From Mesonia mobilis DSM 19841 (GTDB lineage: Bacteria; Bacteroidota; Bacteroidia; Flavobacteriales; Flavobacteriaceae), in assembly GCF_000423405.1 (NCBI RefSeq), contig NZ_AUHX01000008.1, positions 62,001 through 126,000 of the forward strand: a stretch of DNA of 64,000 bases, written 5' to 3'. The translations under genes and the position numbers were made by a program. Under the pieces are notes generated by a model. It was not told the DNA's origin and made no database searches. It was given only the letters and a program-made list of their open reading frames with translations. This document shows positions 1,949 to 52,602 of this stretch, one piece after another (positions within the stretch are counted from its first letter, which is position 1; every line of letters begins with the position of its first letter).

Positions 1949-2073
1949 TTTTGGGCGTGACCCTTTGGGTCGGGCTCTCGGCAGTCGCTTTTTTGTTTTG
2001 TCATGTCGAGCGGAGTCGAGAAACAAAACAAAAAGAGCTCCAACAAAGCCTCCATCCCTCACGCGAGGAAAAC
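1949..2073. repeat. Composite intergenic repeat with two stem-loops
   Basis: A non-coding block before the asparaginase gene. It begins with GGGCG, a GACCC-TTT-GGGTC hairpin (1959-1971) and CGGGCT, followed by the stretch gtcatgtcgagcggagtcg at 2000-2018, which resembles the ends of the GIY-YIG unit at 8860-9244. Ten bases TTTTTGTTTT (1990-1999) pair perfectly with AAAACAAAAA (2025-2034) around that stretch. From memory, similar GGGCG..GGTCGGGCT blocks are scattered in many Bacteroidota genomes, but copy number cannot be tested here. An open frame of 77 codons across it is judged spurious. Confidence 0.5.
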
Positions 2074-3292: not shown

Positions 3293-6200
3293 ATGAAAAA
3301 CATTTATCGAGCATTTGCCCTGCTATGCTTATGCCTTATTTCCGCTTGTAAAGACAAAGATGCAACCACAGAAACTACCGACAACCTGTTTAGGTTTAAA
3401 GAATATATTTCTTTTCATACACAAGGCAGGTCTTCTATTGCCGAACCTATTCGTATAGATTTGGCGCAAGCGCTGGAGCAGTTTGAAATGACACAAGAAA
3501 TTCCTTCAGAATATGTAAAAGTTACGCCTCCTACTAAAGGAAAGTTACTTATAGAAAACAGTACTACCTTATTGTTTAAACCGGAAAACTATTTAGAACC
3601 CGATACCGAATATTCGGTTCGGCTAGATCTAGATGAATTATACGAAGACGTAAAAGATGGATTCGAGAGTTTCACCTTCAGTTTTAAAACCATTCAGCCC
3701 AACTTCAAAATTAACCTTGATAATTTACAGTCTTACGATAAAGAATGGCAATATGTAACGGGAACCTTAGAAGCATCCGATGTGATTCAGCTAAAAAATG
3801 CTAAAAAAATTATTGAAGCAGATCAAGAAGGAAAAAATCTAAAGATCACTTGGCCGGAAGAAGCTGCCGATGCTAATTATTTCACGTTTACCATCGATAG
3901 CATTCAACGAAAAATTGATGATTCTCAAGTAGAAATTTCTTGGGATGGTAAACCGATCAAAGCAGAAAATGAAGGTAAAAATACTTTCCCAATCCCCGGA
4001 AAAAACAATTTTACCGTGATCGATTTACGCTCGTCTCGTGGTGAACAAAGTTCGGTTTCGATCAATTTTTCAGACCCGCTACAGGAAGATCAAAACTTTG
4101 ACGGTTTAGTAAATATTCAAAATCAAAATAAACTCCGCTTTGAAGTTGACGGAAATGTGCTGCATGTTTACCCTTCTAACCGAATTACCGGCGCAATTAA
4201 AATCGATATTTTTAAAGGAATTAAAAACAGCTACGGTTATCACCTTAAAAAAGATTTTTCTGAGACGCTTTCCTTTCAGCAACTCAAACCGGCTGTACGT
4301 TTGCTTTCCCAAGGCGTTATTTTACCCAATTCTGAACAAACCCCTATTTATTTTGAAAGCGTTAATCTTTCTGCAGTCGATGTTCGTGTGATTAAAATTT
4401 ATGAAGACAATATGCTTCAGTTTTTACAAAACGCCGAATTGCACGAAGAAAATTCTTACAACCTTCGTCGTGTAGGAAGACGCGTTGCTAAAAAAACAAT
4501 TTCATTAAAAACCAATAACGAATTTGAACTGAGTTCTTGGAAGGCGCACGCGCTTAATATTTCAGATTTCATTAAAGCCGATCCCGGAGCGATGTATCAG
4601 GTAGAAATAAGTTTTAAAAAAGCTTATAGCACTTTTGACTGCGGAAGTGAAACCGAAGAAACCCAAACAGAGCAAAATGAGCGTTACCAAAACGCCAGCA
4701 TTAGCGATGAAGAAGAACGCGAAGAGCAATATTGGGACAACGAAATTTACGACTGGCGAAATTCCCCTTACAATTGGCAAGAACGCGACAACCCTTGTCA
4801 CATTTCTTATTATCAAGAAAATCGTTTTGCTGTCACCAATGTACTAGGTTCTGATCTTGGTTTTATCATTAAAGAAAGTAATAATCGTTCTTATCATTTT
4901 GCTACGACCAACTTGTTAAATGCAACAGCAGAACCCGGTGTGACGGTAGAAATTTATAATTACCAGCAACAACTTATCGCTTCGATGACTACAGATGAAG
5001 AAGGCTTTGCCATTATCGATAGTGATAAACGTGCCGCTTTTGCCATTGCGCATAAAGGAAAAAATTACGCCTATGCAAAACTGGATGACGGGAATGCTCT
5101 TTCGTTAAGTAAGTTTGATGTTTCCGGTAAAATTTTAGAAAAAGGCTTAAAAGGATTTTTATATACTGAACGTGGTGTTCATCGGCCGGGAGATACGATT
5201 CATTTAACCTTCGCCTTGAATGACAAAGCCAACCCCTTGCCTAAAAACCATCCGATCAAGTTAGAAGTGACCGATGCTCGCGGAAAATTGGTTAAACAAG
5301 AGATCGTAAGTGAAAATGTGAATCCGCAACAAGCTAAAAATGGTTTTTACTATTTTCCTATCGCTACACAAGATACCGATCCTACCGGAAACTGGAATGC
5401 GACGGTTCACGTAGGCGGCGCCAGCTTTTCTAAAAACCTAAAAGTCGCTACCGTAAAACCTAACCGATTAAAAATTAAGATCGATTTTGATGATGAAATT
5501 CTCGATGCCACTCAACCTATTTCGGGTAATTTAAGTTCTACTTGGTTACACGGCGCGCCGGCAAGAAATTTAAAAGCTGAAATGGAAGTAACGCTCACTT
5601 CAACTTCAAGTGCTTTCGACAAATTTCCGAACTACGATTTTATCGATCCTGTTCGTAGTTTTGAGAAGATCGAGCAACCCATGTTAGAGACACAACTCTC
5701 TTCTGAAGGCGAAGCTTATTTCAGTAAAAAAATTGAGCTGAATGAAAAATCTCCGGGAATGCTGAAAGCAACCTTTTTAACCAAAGTTTTTGAAGGTGGC
5801 GGCGATTTCTCGATCGATGTATTTTCTAAAAACTTGGCGCCTTACGATTATTTTGTTGGTTTACTCGCACCAGAACCTCATCGCTACGGTTCTTATTATA
5901 CCGACGAAAATACTGTTTTCGATGTAGTAAGCGTTGATGCGCAAGGTGAAGTTTCGGGCAATCGCGAATTAGAAGTAAAAGTGTTTGAGATCGAATGGCG
6001 TTGGTGGTGGAGCCGCGGTCGCGATAACCTTTCTCGTTATGAGAATACCAATACGTACCGACCTGTAAAAGATTTTACCGTTTCTACAGGCAACAACGGT
6101 AGAGGTCAGTTTACCTTGAATATTCCTGAACGAAATGGTGGTCGTTATTTAATTCGAGTGATCGATAAAGCTTCTGGCCACGCAACCGGTAAAACCGTTT

Positions 6201-8848
6201 ATTTCTATAGAAATTGGTGGAAACGACCTATCGGAGCCAATGCAGAAAGTTCTAAAATGCTTGTTTTTTCTGCCGATAAAGAAAACTATAAAGTTGGTGA
6301 AGAAGCTGTGATCACGTTCCCTTCCGGAAGTAAAGGAAGCGCTTTTATTAGTATTGAAAACGGTACCGAAGTACTTTCTAAACAATGGGTAGCTACGCAA
6401 AAAGGCGAAACGCAGGTTAAAATTCCGCTTACCAAAGAAATGGCGCCGAATGTTTATGTGAATATTTCTTTATTACAAGCTCACGCACAAACCAAAAATG
6501 ATTTACCTATTCGGTTATACGGAGTAATTCCGCTCATGGTTGAAAACCCAAAAACAAAACTTCAACCTAAAATTGAAATGCCGGAAGTGCTTAAACCGGA
6601 AGAAAATTATAACGTAAAAGTTTCTGAAACTCAAGATCGAGAAATGACTTACACTCTTGCTGTGGTCGATGAAGGTTTACTCGATTTAACCAGATTTTCT
6701 ACACCAAATATTCACGGTGCTTTTTATGCTCGCGAAGCTTTGGGCGTTAAAACCTACGATATTTTTGATGATGTGATCGGAGCTTATTCCGGTAGCGTGG
6801 AGAATATTTATGAAATCGGTGGTGGCGATGCCGCAGCCGGAGCAAAAAACAGAAAAGCCGATCGTTTTAAACCTGTAGTCACGTATTTAGGTCCGTTTCA
6901 TTTAAAAGCAGGCGAATCAAAAACGCATCAATTGTTTATGCCTAATTATGTGGGTTCGGTAAAAACCATGGTCGTTGCCGGAAATCATTCAACTTCTGCT
7001 TACGGAAATGCTGAAAAAGTAACTCCGGTAAGAAAACCTTTAATGGTCTTGGCTTCTTTGCCTAGAAAACTTTCTCCGGGAGAAAAAGTGACTTTACCGG
7101 TAACTGTTTTTGCGATGGAAAAGCAAGTGAAAAATGTAAAGGTTGAAGTAAAAGCCGATGAAGCTTTCTCAGCTGTTGGAGAAACTTCCAAAAGTATTTC
7201 TTTTAACGAAATAGGCGAACAAATCGTGAATTTTGAATTTGAAGTAACCGCGACCGATCAACCACAAACCTTTCAGATCTACGCTTCCGGAAACGGAGAA
7301 AAAGCGAAAACATTGGTCGAGATTGATGTTGAAAATCCGAATCCGATTACTCAAAAATCGACAACCTACACTTTAGAAAATAAGCAAAACCAAGAAATTG
7401 ACTTAACTACTTTTGGGGTTGAAGGAAGTAATGCTGCTTCCGTAGAATTTTCAACACTTCCTCCGATGGATTTCAGCAAACGAATTGAGTATTTAATTCG
7501 ATATCCACACGGTTGCGTGGAACAAACGACTTCCGGAGCATTTCCGCAGTTATTTATGGGAGATATTTTTGATCTTTCATTCAACAAAAAACAAGAAATA
7601 GAAGAGAATATTAAACACGCCATTAACCGTTTAAACAATTTCCAAACGGCAAGCGGCGGTTTAAGTTACTGGCCCGGAAGTGGCAATGCTAACGAATGGG
7701 GCACCAATTATGCCGGTCATTTTATGTTAGAAGCTAAGAAAAAAGGTTACGCTTTACCGATTACTTTCTTAAGCAATTGGATGCGTTACCAAAGAAATGA
7801 AGCCAGACAATGGCGAAATTCGAGAACTCGCTACAATTCAAGTTTAACTCAGGCTTACCGTCTTTATACTTTAGCCTTAGCAGGACAACCGGAATTAGCT
7901 GCGATGAACCGTTTACGTGAATCGGGAGAAATGAGTAATGATGCCAAATGGCGATTGGCTGCCGCTTACGCGCTAGCAGGAAAAGATCGTATAGCAAAAC
8001 AAATTGCCGCAACCGCCACTATTAATTTTGAAAGCAAAGATTACAATTATTACACCTATGGATCGCCATTTAGAAACAAAGCGATGGCCTTAGAAACCAT
8101 GGTTGTTTTAGAGGATAACCAACAACGAGAACTAGCGATTTCATTAGCGAAAAATTTATCTTCTTCTCGTTGGTACAGCACGCAAGAAACTTCTTATGCC
8201 TTATTAGCTTTAGCAAAAATGGCCAATAAAAATGGCGGAAAGTCTGTTGAAGTAAACTATGAACTCAATGGAAATAGCGAAAACATTCAAACCACAAAGG
8301 CATTAGCTAAACGAGATTTGAAGGTAAAAATGGGTAGTAACCAATTGAGTTTAAAAAACCAGAAAGACAATATTTTGTATGTAACAGTTTCGCAAAGCGG
8401 AAAACTTCCGTTAGGTGAAGAGTTAATCAGCCAAAGTAAACTTGCTGTAAAAACTAGATTTGTAGATGGCGCCGGCAACAGCATCGATGTTTCTGAATTA
8501 AGACAAGGAACAGAGGTTACCGCAAAAGTGAGCGTCACCAATATTTCGATGGATAACGTAGATAATATTGCGCTTTCGCAAATTTTCCCAAGTGGTTGGG
8601 AAGTGGTAAATACTAGTTTTACCGATTTAAATGGTGGCGCCGATGGTGAAGCCGATTATAAAGATATTCGAGACGATCGGGTAAATTTCTATTTTGAATT
8701 AGACAGTAAGAAAACCAAAACCTTCTCGGTGAAATTGAACGCTTCTTATTTAGGCACGTATTATTTGCCGGGCACACAAGCCGAAGCGATGTACGACAAT
8801 ACCTATTTTGCAAGAACCAAAGGCCAATGGATTAAAGTGGTGCAGTGA
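3293..8848 (+). CDS. Alpha-2-macroglobulin family lipoprotein with thioester
   Basis: Very large (1851 aa) bacterial alpha-2-macroglobulin. The N-terminus MKNIYRAFALLCLCLISAC is a lipoprotein signal (lipid Cys19). The middle contains the MG-type beta domains, including the stretch RGVHRPGDTIH near 630, the A2M core follows, and the thioester motif CVEQ is at 1408-1411 in PHGCVEQTT, followed by the alpha-helical toroid. With the thioester intact, the predicted role is trapping attacking proteases in the periplasm by covalent capture. In proteobacteria this type (YfhM) is encoded beside pbpC and is thought to guard the wall when it is breached. Here pbpC follows after 437 bp, with a GIY-YIG gene between. 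A Trp/Arg-rich patch (about 900-920) is unusual but in frame. Confidence 0.96.
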   Translation: MKNIYRAFALLCLCLISACKDKDATTETTDNLFRFKEYISFHTQGRSSIAEPIRIDLAQALEQFEMTQEIPSEYVKVTPPTKGKLLIENSTTLLFKPENYLEPDTEYSVRLDLDELYEDVKDGFESFTFSFKTIQPNFKINLDNLQSYDKEWQYVTGTLEASDVIQLKNAKKIIEADQEGKNLKITWPEEAADANYFTFTIDSIQRKIDDSQVEISWDGKPIKAENEGKNTFPIPGKNNFTVIDLRSSRGEQSSVSINFSDPLQEDQNFDGLVNIQNQNKLRFEVDGNVLHVYPSNRITGAIKIDIFKGIKNSYGYHLKKDFSETLSFQQLKPAVRLLSQGVILPNSEQTPIYFESVNLSAVDVRVIKIYEDNMLQFLQNAELHEENSYNLRRVGRRVAKKTISLKTNNEFELSSWKAHALNISDFIKADPGAMYQVEISFKKAYSTFDCGSETEETQTEQNERYQNASISDEEEREEQYWDNEIYDWRNSPYNWQERDNPCHISYYQENRFAVTNVLGSDLGFIIKESNNRSYHFATTNLLNATAEPGVTVEIYNYQQQLIASMTTDEEGFAIIDSDKRAAFAIAHKGKNYAYAKLDDGNALSLSKFDVSGKILEKGLKGFLYTERGVHRPGDTIHLTFALNDKANPLPKNHPIKLEVTDARGKLVKQEIVSENVNPQQAKNGFYYFPIATQDTDPTGNWNATVHVGGASFSKNLKVATVKPNRLKIKIDFDDEILDATQPISGNLSSTWLHGAPARNLKAEMEVTLTSTSSAFDKFPNYDFIDPVRSFEKIEQPMLETQLSSEGEAYFSKKIELNEKSPGMLKATFLTKVFEGGGDFSIDVFSKNLAPYDYFVGLLAPEPHRYGSYYTDENTVFDVVSVDAQGEVSGNRELEVKVFEIEWRWWWSRGRDNLSRYENTNTYRPVKDFTVSTGNNGRGQFTLNIPERNGGRYLIRVIDKASGHATGKTVYFYRNWWKRPIGANAESSKMLVFSADKENYKVGEEAVITFPSGSKGSAFISIENGTEVLSKQWVATQKGETQVKIPLTKEMAPNVYVNISLLQAHAQTKNDLPIRLYGVIPLMVENPKTKLQPKIEMPEVLKPEENYNVKVSETQDREMTYTLAVVDEGLLDLTRFSTPNIHGAFYAREALGVKTYDIFDDVIGAYSGSVENIYEIGGGDAAAGAKNRKADRFKPVVTYLGPFHLKAGESKTHQLFMPNYVGSVKTMVVAGNHSTSAYGNAEKVTPVRKPLMVLASLPRKLSPGEKVTLPVTVFAMEKQVKNVKVEVKADEAFSAVGETSKSISFNEIGEQIVNFEFEVTATDQPQTFQIYASGNGEKAKTLVEIDVENPNPITQKSTTYTLENKQNQEIDLTTFGVEGSNAASVEFSTLPPMDFSKRIEYLIRYPHGCVEQTTSGAFPQLFMGDIFDLSFNKKQEIEENIKHAINRLNNFQTASGGLSYWPGSGNANEWGTNYAGHFMLEAKKKGYALPITFLSNWMRYQRNEARQWRNSRTRYNSSLTQAYRLYTLALAGQPELAAMNRLRESGEMSNDAKWRLAAAYALAGKDRIAKQIAATATINFESKDYNYYTYGSPFRNKAMALETMVVLEDNQQRELAISLAKNLSSSRWYSTQETSYALLALAKMANKNGGKSVEVNYELNGNSENIQTTKALAKRDLKVKMGSNQLSLKNQKDNILYVTVSQSGKLPLGEELISQSKLAVKTRFVDGAGNSIDVSELRQGTEVTAKVSVTNISMDNVDNIALSQIFPSGWEVVNTSFTDLNGGADGEADYKDIRDDRVNFYFELDSKKTKTFSVKLNASYLGTYYLPGTQAEAMYDNTYFARTKGQWIKVVQ

Positions 8849-8859
8849 TTTTGAGTTTT

Positions 8860-8880
8860 GTCATGCTGAGCTTGTCGAAG
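8860..8880 (+). repeat. Left inverted repeat of the GIY-YIG unit
   Basis: Begins 12 bp after the A2M stop codon and ends 7 bp before the first possible start of the GIY-YIG gene. Mirrors 9224-9244 with three mismatches (positions 5, 6 and 13 of the repeat). Two of the three differences are transitions in the half nearer the outer end. Confidence 0.7.
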
Positions 8881-8887
8881 CAATTTT

Positions 8888-9205
8888 ATGAATAAAGTAA
8901 TGAAGTTTTATTATACCTATATTGTATTATGTGCAGATAATTCCTACTATATCGGGATTACAAATAACTTAAGAAAAAGAATTGAACAGCATAATGAAGG
9001 AATAAATAGAAGGAGTTATACTTTTAAGAGAAGACCAGTAACTTTAAAATGGAATATTCAGTGTACTAACCCAGAAGAGGCAATTAAAATTGAAAAACAA
9101 CTTAAAGGTTGGTCTAGAAAAAAGAAAGAAGCTCTAATTAAAGAAAATTGGCAAGACCTTGTTCGATTTTCAAAAAACCATACTCAATTTGGAAAGCCTG
9201 AGTAA
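8888..9205 (+). CDS. GIY-YIG domain endonuclease-like protein
   Basis: Single-domain GIY-YIG protein (COG2827/YhbQ-like). The signature appears as YTYIV (residues 9-13) and YYIG (20-23). It is followed by the conserved Arg-containing helix NNLRKRIEQH (26-35) and by the metal-binding Glu69 in IKIEKQLKGW, so the catalytic set looks complete. This predicts DNA strand nicking or cleavage; no partner or target domain is present. Family members usually start at what is Met5 here (8900), which may be the true start. Seven of eight arginines use AGA/AGG, against mixed CGN/AGA use in both neighbours, consistent with separate ancestry. It is flanked by inverted repeats (8860-8880, 9224-9244). Confidence 0.9.
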   Translation: MNKVMKFYYTYIVLCADNSYYIGITNNLRKRIEQHNEGINRRSYTFKRRPVTLKWNIQCTNPEEAIKIEKQLKGWSRKKKEALIKENWQDLVRFSKNHTQFGKPE

Positions 9206-9223
9206 TCATCGGGTTGATAAACA

Positions 9224-9244
9224 CTTCGACAGGCTCAGTGTGAC
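9224..9244 (-). repeat. Right inverted repeat of the GIY-YIG unit
   Basis: Inverted copy of 8860-8880 (18 of 21 identical), 18 bp after the GIY-YIG stop codon and 41 bp before the pbpC start. It could fold with the left copy in a transcript running through from the A2M gene. Confidence 0.7.
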
Positions 9245-9285: not shown

Positions 9286-11634
9286 ATGCTTCACTTTCTT
9301 AAAAAACATCCTATCAAAATAGGTTTACTATTTATTGTAGGAATGGTGTGGCTTTTTTGTTTACCTAAACAGCTTTTTAACGAACCTACTTCTACGGTTC
9401 TAAAAAGTCGAGAGGGTTTGATGTTGGGAGCGCGCATTGCCGATGACGGGCAATGGCGATTTCCTGAGCAAGACAGTATTCCGTATCGGTTTGAGCAATG
9501 TATTCTGAATTTTGAAGATGAATATTTCTACTATCATCCCGGTTTTAATCCGGTAGCGATCACCAAGGCGCTTTGGGAAAACCTCACCACAGAAGATCGT
9601 CGTGGCGGAAGCACACTTACGCAACAAGTGATTCGACTATCACGTAAAAATCAAGAGCGGACTTACTGGGAAAAAGTGATTGAAATTTTTCAAGCTACGC
9701 GATTAGAACTTCGTTTCAGTAAAAAAGAAATCCTCAACCTTTACGCAACTTATGCTCCTTTCGGTGGAAATGTAGTTGGTTTAGAAACTGCATCTTGGCG
9801 CTATTTTGGTCTTTCTTCGCAAGATTTAAGTTGGGGGCAAGCCGCAGCTTTGGCAGTTTTACCTAACGCACCGTCATTAATATTCCCCGGGAAGAATGAG
9901 AAAATTTTCCAACAAAAGCGCGACCGATTATTACGAAAGCTTTTTGAAAATGAAGTGATCGACCAAACTACTTACGAATTAGCTTTAGCTGAGAAACTTC
10001 CGGGAAAACCTTTTCCGCTTCCGGAAATTACTCCGCACCTCACTGAAAAATTAAGAAATGATCATAAAGGAACACAGTTAACCTCAACGATCAACTATTC
10101 GCTTCAGCAACAAATTAATGAGATCGCTCGTAAAAATTACGAAGCTTTACGACAAAATGAAATTCATAACCTTGCGATTTTAATACTTGATGTGAATACG
10201 CGAGAAGTTTTAGCGTATGTGGGAAATTCGCCTACCAGTGCTGAACACGATCATTATGTAGATATTATTCAGCGGCCGCGAAGCACGGGCAGTATTTTAA
10301 AACCATTTTTATATGCTGCAATGCTTGATGAAGGAAGTTTGCTTCCGCATACGCTCGTTGCCGATGTTCCTACTTCGGTGAACGGTTATAGTCCGCAAAA
10401 TTTTGATAAAGAATTTCATGGCGCTGTTCCTGCAAGTGTCGCTTTGGCAAAATCGCTAAACGTGCCGGCGGTTCGTATGCTTCAGGATTATGGTTTGCAA
10501 AAATTTTATCATCAGCTCGAAAAACTTCAGCAAAAAAATATTAACAAGTCTGCAGGTTATTATGGGCTTTCACTAATTCTAGGCGGCGCAGAAAGTTCTC
10601 TTTGGGGTATCACAAATGCTTATGCCGGAATGGCTTCAACTTTAAATCATTTTAATTCTTCTTCTAGTGAATATAAACCGAAAGAATTTTTAGAACCGAT
10701 TTATAAGTTGAATAAAAAAGCTGACTTCGGAACAAATCAATTTCAGCCGGAAGTATTTCATGCCGGAGCTATTTATCATACGTTGAAAACTCTGGAAGAA
10801 GTCAATCGCCCAAGCGGAGAAGAAAACTGGAATTTCTTTTCACACTCACAAGCCATTTCTTGGAAAACCGGTACGAGCTACGGTTTTAAAGATGCTTGGG
10901 CGGTAGGAGTTAATGCTCGTTATGCGGTTGGGGTTTGGGTCGGGAATGCCGATGGCGAAGGCCGACCGGGATTAACAGGTTTACAAGCTGCTGCTCCTAT
11001 TTTATTTGAAAGTTTTGATAAATTACCTAAAGCTGATGTATTTCAAATTCCTTATGATGAATTGGTTGAAGCTGAAATTTGCTCGAAAAGCGGTCATTTA
11101 GCCGGAATTTATTGTCAAGAAACAGCACAAGAATTAATTCCGAAATATGGAACTCGAACCACTTCTTGTCCTTATCATCAGCAAGTATTTTTAGATGAAT
11201 CAGAGCAATTTCAGGTGAATTCTTCTTGTTACGAATTGGCAGAAATGAAGGTGAACAACTGGTTTTCGCTTCCGCCGGTGATGGAATATTATTATGCTCC
11301 CAAACATCCGGAATATAAGAGTCTCCCTCCATTTAAGTCGGGCTGTCTCAAAGAAGGAGAAAAATTGATGCAGTTTATCTTTCCGAAGAAAAATGAAGCG
11401 ATCTTGCTTCCAAAGAATTTTAAAGAACAAACCAATCCGGTGGTTTTTAAATTAGCACATCGCAATCCCGATACGAAAGTTTATTGGTACATCGATAAGC
11501 AGTTTATTGAGGTGACTGAAACTTTTCACGAGCTTACTTACGAACCAGAACCTGGCGAACACCTACTTACGGTTACCGATCAAGAAGGAAATTCGATCTC
11601 CAGAAAAATTAAAATCGAAAAAGATTTAAAATAG
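9286..11634 (+). CDS. pbpC: Penicillin-binding protein 1C (bifunctional PBP)
   Basis: Class A PBP with one N-terminal membrane anchor (about 10-27), a glycosyltransferase-51 domain, a transpeptidase domain and the C-terminal PBP1C-specific region. GT51 motifs: Glu77 in FEDEYFYYHPG and RRGGSTLTQQ (105-114). Transpeptidase motifs: Ser336-Ile-Leu-Lys339, Ser390-Leu-Asn392 and Lys527-Thr-Gly529. Cys-containing loops and a beta-rich C-terminal domain complete the 782 residues. It polymerises and cross-links peptidoglycan in the periplasm. The family is habitually paired with thioester A2M, and that gene is just upstream, so a joint role in envelope defence or repair is likely. Confidence 0.97.
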   Translation: MLHFLKKHPIKIGLLFIVGMVWLFCLPKQLFNEPTSTVLKSREGLMLGARIADDGQWRFPEQDSIPYRFEQCILNFEDEYFYYHPGFNPVAITKALWENLTTEDRRGGSTLTQQVIRLSRKNQERTYWEKVIEIFQATRLELRFSKKEILNLYATYAPFGGNVVGLETASWRYFGLSSQDLSWGQAAALAVLPNAPSLIFPGKNEKIFQQKRDRLLRKLFENEVIDQTTYELALAEKLPGKPFPLPEITPHLTEKLRNDHKGTQLTSTINYSLQQQINEIARKNYEALRQNEIHNLAILILDVNTREVLAYVGNSPTSAEHDHYVDIIQRPRSTGSILKPFLYAAMLDEGSLLPHTLVADVPTSVNGYSPQNFDKEFHGAVPASVALAKSLNVPAVRMLQDYGLQKFYHQLEKLQQKNINKSAGYYGLSLILGGAESSLWGITNAYAGMASTLNHFNSSSSEYKPKEFLEPIYKLNKKADFGTNQFQPEVFHAGAIYHTLKTLEEVNRPSGEENWNFFSHSQAISWKTGTSYGFKDAWAVGVNARYAVGVWVGNADGEGRPGLTGLQAAAPILFESFDKLPKADVFQIPYDELVEAEICSKSGHLAGIYCQETAQELIPKYGTRTTSCPYHQQVFLDESEQFQVNSSCYELAEMKVNNWFSLPPVMEYYYAPKHPEYKSLPPFKSGCLKEGEKLMQFIFPKKNEAILLPKNFKEQTNPVVFKLAHRNPDTKVYWYIDKQFIEVTETFHELTYEPEPGEHLLTVTDQEGNSISRKIKIEKDLK

Positions 11635-52516: not shown

Positions 52517-52602
52517 CGTCATTCCGGACTTGATCCGGAATCTCATCATTTCTGAAAAGCAAACTAATCAGGATGAGACCCTAAATCTAGTTTAGGGTGA
52601 CG
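52517..52602. repeat. Inverted pair of palindromic repeats (TGACG/GAGA family)
   Basis: Unit A (52517-52544), read on the minus strand: GAGA, stem TTCCGGA, 5-nt loop, TCCGGAA, TGACG. Unit B (52575-52602): GAGA, CCCTAAA, 5-nt loop, TTTAGGG, TGACG. The two face each other like a REP doublet. Flanks are constant while stems differ but stay complementary. They sit in the only wide gap of the envelope cluster (52428-52661); I see no gene in that gap. Confidence 0.75.

Follow-up and report, generated by a model that had tools for sequence, protein, structure and literature searches.

The nuclease gene and its flanking hairpins

The window, i.e., the whole stretch of 64,000 nucleotides that was analysed, carries at 8888..9205 (+) a stand-alone GIY-YIG nuclease gene of 105 amino acids, assigned by its ORF, Pfam match and tree position to class A, in the clade of apex type I. 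Two type I hairpins enclose it in inverted orientation: the left one, at 8860..8882 (+), has the tag GTCA, the stem TGCT/AGCA, a GA..GA block and the type I apex, and the right one, at 9222..9244 (-), has the tag GTCA and the stem CACT/AGTG. The neighbouring ORFs, at 3293..8848 (+) upstream and 9286..11634 (+) downstream, keep the names A2M and pbpC given to them in a sequence-only reading of the same DNA. The hairpin scan of the window also returned two units that have no gene, namely a type II unit with three of four stem pairs at 2000..2023 (+) and a class B hairpin with a 7-bp stem and the loop CTTGA at 52518..52540 (+).

The sequence-only reading had described the ends of the element as 21-bp inverted repeats, and this was confirmed: 18 of the 21 bases of 8860-8880 agree with the reverse complement of 9224-9244, whereas in 300 stretches of 400 nt taken at random from the window the best inverted 21-mer between the two 60-nt ends matched at 10-14 positions in 297, at 15 in two, and at 17 in one. 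The longest exact run common to both ends is 8 bases, and a repeat search with a 9-base seed missed the pair. The one enclosed gene has a single Pfam match, to GIY-YIG (PF01541, E 1.1e-18), and the catalytic set claimed for it is indeed kept, Tyr21, Arg31 and Glu69 being invariant in an alignment of 70 sequences that includes the window protein. Its arginine codons are also unlike those of the neighbours, as had been noticed: AGA or AGG accounts for 7 of 8, whereas the A2M gene has them in 17 of 73 and pbpC in 2 of 28; the respective GC contents are 0.286, 0.390 and 0.397. An NCBIfam search assigned no family to the window protein, and the group I intron endonuclease model gave weak matches in 13 of the 70 aligned sequences (best E 1e-4). 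By sequence, the closest solved structures are those of UPF0213 GIY-YIG proteins, PDB 1zg2 (E 4.9e-19) and 1ywl (E 9.5e-16), which bear the names BH0048 and EF2693 and are proteins of Bacillota. Two other roles were considered and rejected: that of a defence-system gene, for which the window protein gave weak partial matches only, and that of phage or plasmid cargo, since 24 phage and 18 plasmid records held no homologue of 60% identity or more. Viral contigs contained three partial matches to the nuclease.

Architecture of the hairpins

The class A grammar was read as GTCA-N4-GA-G-X-apex-X'-T-C-GA-N4', in which the stem sequence is free and covarying. When units were picked by the tag, a perfect 4-bp stem and the fixed spacing alone, GTCA returned 599 units, compared with 108 for ACTG, 103 for GTCT and 125 for GTGA, and the inner GA..GA was present in 402, 1, 5 and 2 of them, respectively. 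Stem covariation was counted without a pairing filter and compared with shuffling. The four stem pairs were all present in 258 of the 317 units of type I (mean after shuffling 33.7, maximum 51), in 82 of the 97 of type II (6.2 and 16) and in 57 of the 64 of type III (16.3 and 28).

Of the 636 GA..GA units whose inner length was 9-61, the G and the TCGA were in place in 529, and in these the X-X' positions were C-G in 420, T-A in 65 and G-C in 10, i.e., paired in 495 (shuffled mean 372.5, maximum 392). Because X-X' covaries, a GA..GA block with an X-X' pair and a bulged T is preferred over GA-TC pairing, and the class A hairpin would contain a tandem sheared G.A block; the older reading, with GA paired to TC and the other GA bulged, is possible. 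A T precedes GTCA in 80-92% of type I-III units (257, 82 and 55 units), and a T stands opposite the A of the tag in 56-65% of class A units. Calculated as DNA, single units (six strands) reached -0.3 to -2.5 kcal/mol, with z from -0.54 to 1.29, so that stable self-folding of one unit was rejected; with folding this weak, the hairpin would need the help of a protein.

Hairpins beside related nuclease genes

A scan of public genomes yielded 197 relatives of the nuclease gene, and the best 79 of these 197 loci were kept. In the 74 with full flanks, an inward GTCA-tagged hairpin was found upstream in 51 and downstream in 58; the same hairpin was found in 24 of 641 windows located 1.5-4.5 kb away and in 32 of 790 shuffled upstream windows. 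With hairpins typed by apex at the 79 genes, the count was 91 of 148 adjacent against 12 of 634 distant 300-nt windows. The typing was extended to 128 class A loci, including those from genus and family searches, which comprised 118 distinct ones after removal of 10 duplicates by the first 60 residues; a typed hairpin lay within 300 bp in 94 of the 118 (type I in 62, type II in 21, type III in 11). The window locus is one case of a general pattern. As to the question of whether every gene copy is bounded by repeats, a hairpin was present on either side in 65 of the 74 loci and on both sides in 44, and 24 of the 118 distinct class A loci had no typed hairpin. At some of these 24 (L050, L095, L100 and L101) hairpins with other apices were seen by eye. 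Two of the 118 were mixed (L090 and L230).

Tagged hairpins were also observed beside GIY-YIG genes in contigs of metagenome-assembled genomes named Eremiobacterota, Leptospiraceae and Falkowbacteria (L080, L083, L110, L112 and L113), which reflect either horizontal spread or binning errors. In a relative, a GIY-YIG match with 47% identity to the window protein (G012:C14:16414-16674) lies within an open frame of 573 amino acids and is a possible fusion.

Apex type and protein clade

When the apex label was placed on a tree of 90 proteins, it changed 7 times, compared with a mean of 28.9 after shuffling, and none of 200 shuffles was as low; the tree was built quickly from 108 columns, so its individual forks are weak, and the definition of the apex types followed inspection of the data. 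Types I and II each reappear outside their own main groups on the tree. The genome from which the window comes has one class A gene per apex type, each in the matching clade (L170 for I, L002 for II and L004 for III). Since the stem covaries and the apex type tracks the protein clade, the nuclease very probably recognises the hairpin of its own clade. The association of gene and hairpin and the code of the hairpin itself are direct observations at these loci.

Dispersal of the repeat and its co-occurrence with the gene

Copies of the repeat that have no nuclease, which the sequence-only reading had proposed to look for, indeed exist and are dispersed: the own genome holds 29 matches to the repeat 19-mer at up to 3 mismatches, and one to the reversed pattern. 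Across the 16 genomes of the genus, CTGAGCYTGTCGAAG occurs in 9-33 copies in the five that have a close homologue of the nuclease (E <= 5e-35; among the five, one has an in-frame stop, one is frameshifted and one is cut at a contig start) and in 0-3 copies in the other eleven, while the reversed CTGAGCYTGTCGAAG occurs in none of the 16. At the level of the family (299 genomes, kinship ignored), at least two tagged type I copies were present in 17 of the 19 genomes that have a close homologue versus 36 of the 280 others, the cut for a close homologue (E <= 1e-30) having been picked after the data were seen. The two exceptions, G046 and G022, have expanded-apex hairpins beside the gene (L235 and L238, by eye). 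Contrasts within genera came to six for, one against and two ties.

Several genomes are rich in the repeat and have no close intact gene, namely G191 (33 copies, the highest of all), G290 (19), G020 (17), G128 (11) and others. On re-examination of eight such genomes without a close gene, 8 of 23 loci were found to hold a typed or class B hairpin. G155 has a nuclease gene fragment (63% over 52 amino acids), and G020 has another (70% over 23 amino acids) amid five type I units on a locus of 1571 nt; G290 has nuclease genes beside type III and II hairpins, and a single distant GIY-YIG gene is present in each of G191, G170 and G209. Repeat-rich genomes of this kind, together with the vertical inheritance at the A2M-pbpC junction described below, are what one would expect if the flanks were incidental, i.e., generic intergenic repeats that owe their movement to a different enzyme and lie beside an ordinary, vertically inherited gene. 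We regard this as highly improbable, considering the difference between adjacent and distant windows, the agreement of apex and clade both within and between genomes, and the tracking of copy number by the gene. Overall, the original proposal of a nuclease tied to a dispersed tagged repeat, comparable in logic to REP/RAYT and built on a different class of enzyme, is well supported by the statistics of the flanks, by co-occurrence, by the covarying stems and by apices specific to each clade.

History of the A2M-pbpC site

A2M and pbpC had been said to be normally adjacent, which agrees with a junction without the nuclease gene at five related loci (G001, G006, G007, G008 and G014); hairpins occur there in G006 and G007. 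A different gene occupies the junction in G003, and A2M is absent from this place in G005; the site comparison left out three loci, L150-L152. Homologues of pbpC were found in 16 of 16 genomes of the genus, with close ones in 13. The nuclease gene occupies the A2M-pbpC junction in G013 and L047 (frameshifted) and in Zunongwangia pacifica (L039) as well, and in G012 and L038 it is found beside pbpC, close to the start of a contig. Since these contigs (L038:1-409 and G012:C45:122-409) begin within about 120 nt of the nuclease gene, its absence elsewhere can be an assembly effect. A target-site duplication was not seen by eye in the relatives compared.

At the DNA level, the nuclease gene is 85.9% identical to that of Z. 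pacifica, and its two neighbours are 82.6% and 85.3% identical; dN/dS in the same comparison is 0.10 for the nuclease gene, compared with 0.053 (pbpC) and 0.067 (the tail of A2M). Against L038, the nuclease gene gave a dN/dS of 0.23, from 89 codons with few changes. A recent mobile copy was rejected, as the gene has diverged no more than its neighbours and has a low dN/dS, and the view of the gene as a mobile insert at this place gave way to that of an old, inherited one. Because the same junction exists in Z. pacifica with neighbour-like divergence, the simplest account would be one old insertion followed by vertical inheritance, with decay in places (as in G013), and the value of 0.10 suggests that the window gene is still under purifying selection. 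Next to the nuclease gene of Z. pacifica there is an ORF of 79 amino acids without a clear family (L039:4680-4990), flanked by two more type I-like units with a GTCT tag, which may be a passenger gene.

A host-adapted nuclease of the Ssn type would likewise show a low dN/dS and be inherited vertically at this site. Such an enzyme would cut hairpins in incoming single-stranded DNA and thereby tune natural transformation, an effect that work on Ssn in Neisseria is said to report; the repeats would be host signals and the inverted pair a remnant of arrival. The phage and plasmid collections, devoid of homologues at the 60% level, speak for this as well. Against it, the gene is patchy and decaying among close relatives, the listed repeats cluster around the gene in several genomes, and the cassettes described below turn over, so that we consider it rather unlikely.

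Flavo-1 loops as hosts of the hairpins

The 22-base Flavo-1 pattern is absent from the 64-kb window, and 23 places in the own genome match it; 7 of 9 loci submitted to Rfam passed as Flavo-1 (RF01705), the test did not call L124 and L137, and the other places are assigned by the pattern. Flavo-1 is a separate repeat, whose loops here host type I, type II or other hairpin cassettes, and the 23-mer of the left hairpin (8860..8882) recurs in several of these loops in the own genome. In the own genome and in two of its relatives, the cassettes in Flavo-1-like loops are interchangeable (L117-L139 and L200-L229). In 6 of 21 orthologous Flavo-1 pairs between the own genome and G012 or G013, with cassettes sorted by eye, the cassettes differ while the rest of the element is nearly unchanged: L120/L205, L124/L204, L130/L217, L131/L213, L133/L216 and L139/L226. 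The flanks of these six pairs are 83-98% identical, L139/L226 being compared over one flank and the adjoining bases. In L122/L212 and L132/L214 the difference lies inside one cassette type, and L136/L221 was excluded for its short, one-flank match. The cassette differences can be explained by recombination among Flavo-1 copies, whether or not the nuclease takes part.

In Flavobacterium psychrophilum, Flavo-1 hits are recorded as sense or antisense to mapped TRs and in many cases outside TRs (PMC9723704), and with both orientations present Flavo-1 may be a DNA element rather than RNA. The link to GIY-YIG genes would recast this RNA motif of unassigned function as a landing site for tagged hairpins. 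The sense and antisense hits weigh against the suggestion that the hairpins act in RNA, in processing, stability or autoregulation of the nuclease mRNA, with the enzyme not acting on their DNA form. For this suggestion it can be said that the inward hairpins found are often no more than 30 nt away from the start (45 of 94) or stop (41 of 71) and that covariation looks the same for RNA and DNA; however, adjacent type I units are found in all relative orientations (54, 37, 36 and 20), and GIY-YIG enzymes are DNA nucleases, which makes an RNA role quite improbable.

Distant GIY-YIG genes and CGTC-tagged repeats

A sample of 24 loci of more distant GIY-YIG genes, some from repeat-rich genomes without a close gene, defined class B. 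A CGTC/TGTC-A hairpin with a stem of at least 7 bp was found in 17 of 47 adjacent versus 1 of 92 distant windows, and at 10 of the 24 loci. Of 52 units of the form GTCA-N7-CTTGA-N7', 34 were paired at 6 or more of 7 positions (after shuffling, 7.8 on average and 15 at most), and these 34 have a C before the tag in 91% and the A-T of the stem in 100%; the class B stem is 7 bp as searched for, plus the A-T.

These features recall the CGTC-tagged REPs catalogued in the 2013 survey of Di Nocera (PMC3733652), which have stems of 8-9 bp and loops of 4-5, occur in five phyla including Bacteroidetes, and are apparently without a dedicated transposase. The unpaired CGTC/TGTC tag of that superfamily was found here, with T before GTCA in types I-III and C in class B, as were the frequent inverted pairs; the A-T start of the stem is seen in all 34 class B units and in 56-65% of class A units. 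Stems are of 8-9 bp there, of 7 bp plus the A-T in class B, and of 4 bp plus the GA..GA block in class A; and whereas the available text of the survey associates no transposase gene with the repeats, the genes flanked here are GIY-YIG. Class B hairpins appear to fit the published description of CGTC REPs, of which class A would be a mismatched or bulged variant. That different branches of the enzyme go with different hairpin tips points to the GIY-YIG family as the probable long-missing partner of the widespread CGTC-tagged repeats.

Outside Bacteroidota, eight of 42 plasmid and phage records were examined (seven bacterial replicons and one phage). A variant-tag form of the class A grammar (GTTCA or GTTCG, CCTCA) was found at the gene in two bacterial replicons, shuffling giving 4 such units in 400 sequences: Sphingomonas parapaucimobilis has three units, one of them overlapping the end of the gene, and Methylobacterium bullatum has two. 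In M. aquaticum, variant-tag units were recognised by eye only, and the remaining five of the eight records had no class A grammar at the gene. In the one Bacillota record examined, a Bacillus subtilis plasmid (L291), no class A unit was found at yazA, where the gene lies between two RNA methyltransferase genes. On a Planktothrix plasmid (L290), a related GIY-YIG gene is situated between an MmeI-type enzyme and the DISARM gene drmA.

Proposed mode of action

Taken together, the findings are best explained by a selfish unit of the REP kind that has a GIY-YIG nuclease at its core, with the gene between inverted hairpins and gene-less copies dispersed, to which we assign a probability of roughly 0.6. 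The nuclease would recognise the hairpin in single-stranded form, through the unpaired TGTC(A), a helix of 4 bp whose sequence is free, the conserved GA..GA mismatch or bulge and the clade-specific apex, and would cut the single-stranded DNA next to it. Repair or copying after the cut could then spread or exchange hairpins and, rarely, the whole gene unit, in a mode closer to homing or gene conversion than to HuH-type transposition; both the cutting and the spreading by the nuclease are proposed by us from the patterns above. A broader version, possible and offered tentatively, is that the whole CGTC-tagged superfamily is driven by GIY-YIG enzymes as a second, independent form of the REP/RAYT way of life, whose clades would read tag, mismatch block and apex on a free stem and would drive the cassette exchange in Flavo-1. 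The mobiliser of CGTC-tagged REPs, left open in the 2013 survey (PMC3733652), becomes testable through the GIY-YIG link. Moreover, a code of tag, free stem and clade-specific apex predicts for each enzyme the hairpin that it should cut, which is useful for single-strand-specific cutters.

Comparison with known systems

The locus had been put forward as a candidate for an under-described system, which it is to a lesser degree than supposed, given the CGTC REPs catalogued in 2013 (PMC3733652) and the Ssn nucleases with cognate repeats that were reportedly described in 2025. Titles and abstract beginnings in the open-licence literature yielded no link between a GIY-YIG gene and tagged repeats, and in the available part of PMC9465073 RayT and a GIY-YIG endonuclease stand in one gene table, with no link drawn there.

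Two known systems offer the closest parallels. The first is Ssn, reportedly presented in Nat Commun in 2025 as a GIY-YIG family of site-specific single-strand nucleases, in Neisseria with the dispersed NTS repeats as the cognate; thousands of homologues are said to have their own target sequences, and an effect on natural transformation is reported for Neisseria. Ssn shares with the present family the stand-alone GIY-YIG enzyme of about 100 amino acids and a repeat that lies beside the gene and is also dispersed; judged from apex and clade, the repeat would be cognate to the nuclease here as well. Features that may set the present hairpins apart are a covarying stem of free sequence, the GA..GA block, an apex type that goes with the clade, and different cassettes in orthologous Flavo-1 loops. 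The second is REP/RAYT, where the gene of the enzyme in a REPtron is likewise enclosed by tagged hairpins in inverted orientation, and further copies without a gene are dispersed. The enzyme there is an HuH tyrosine transposase, whereas the only Pfam match of the gene enclosed here is GIY-YIG and no HuH transposase was found in it, and the tag is GTAG there and (T)GTCA here.
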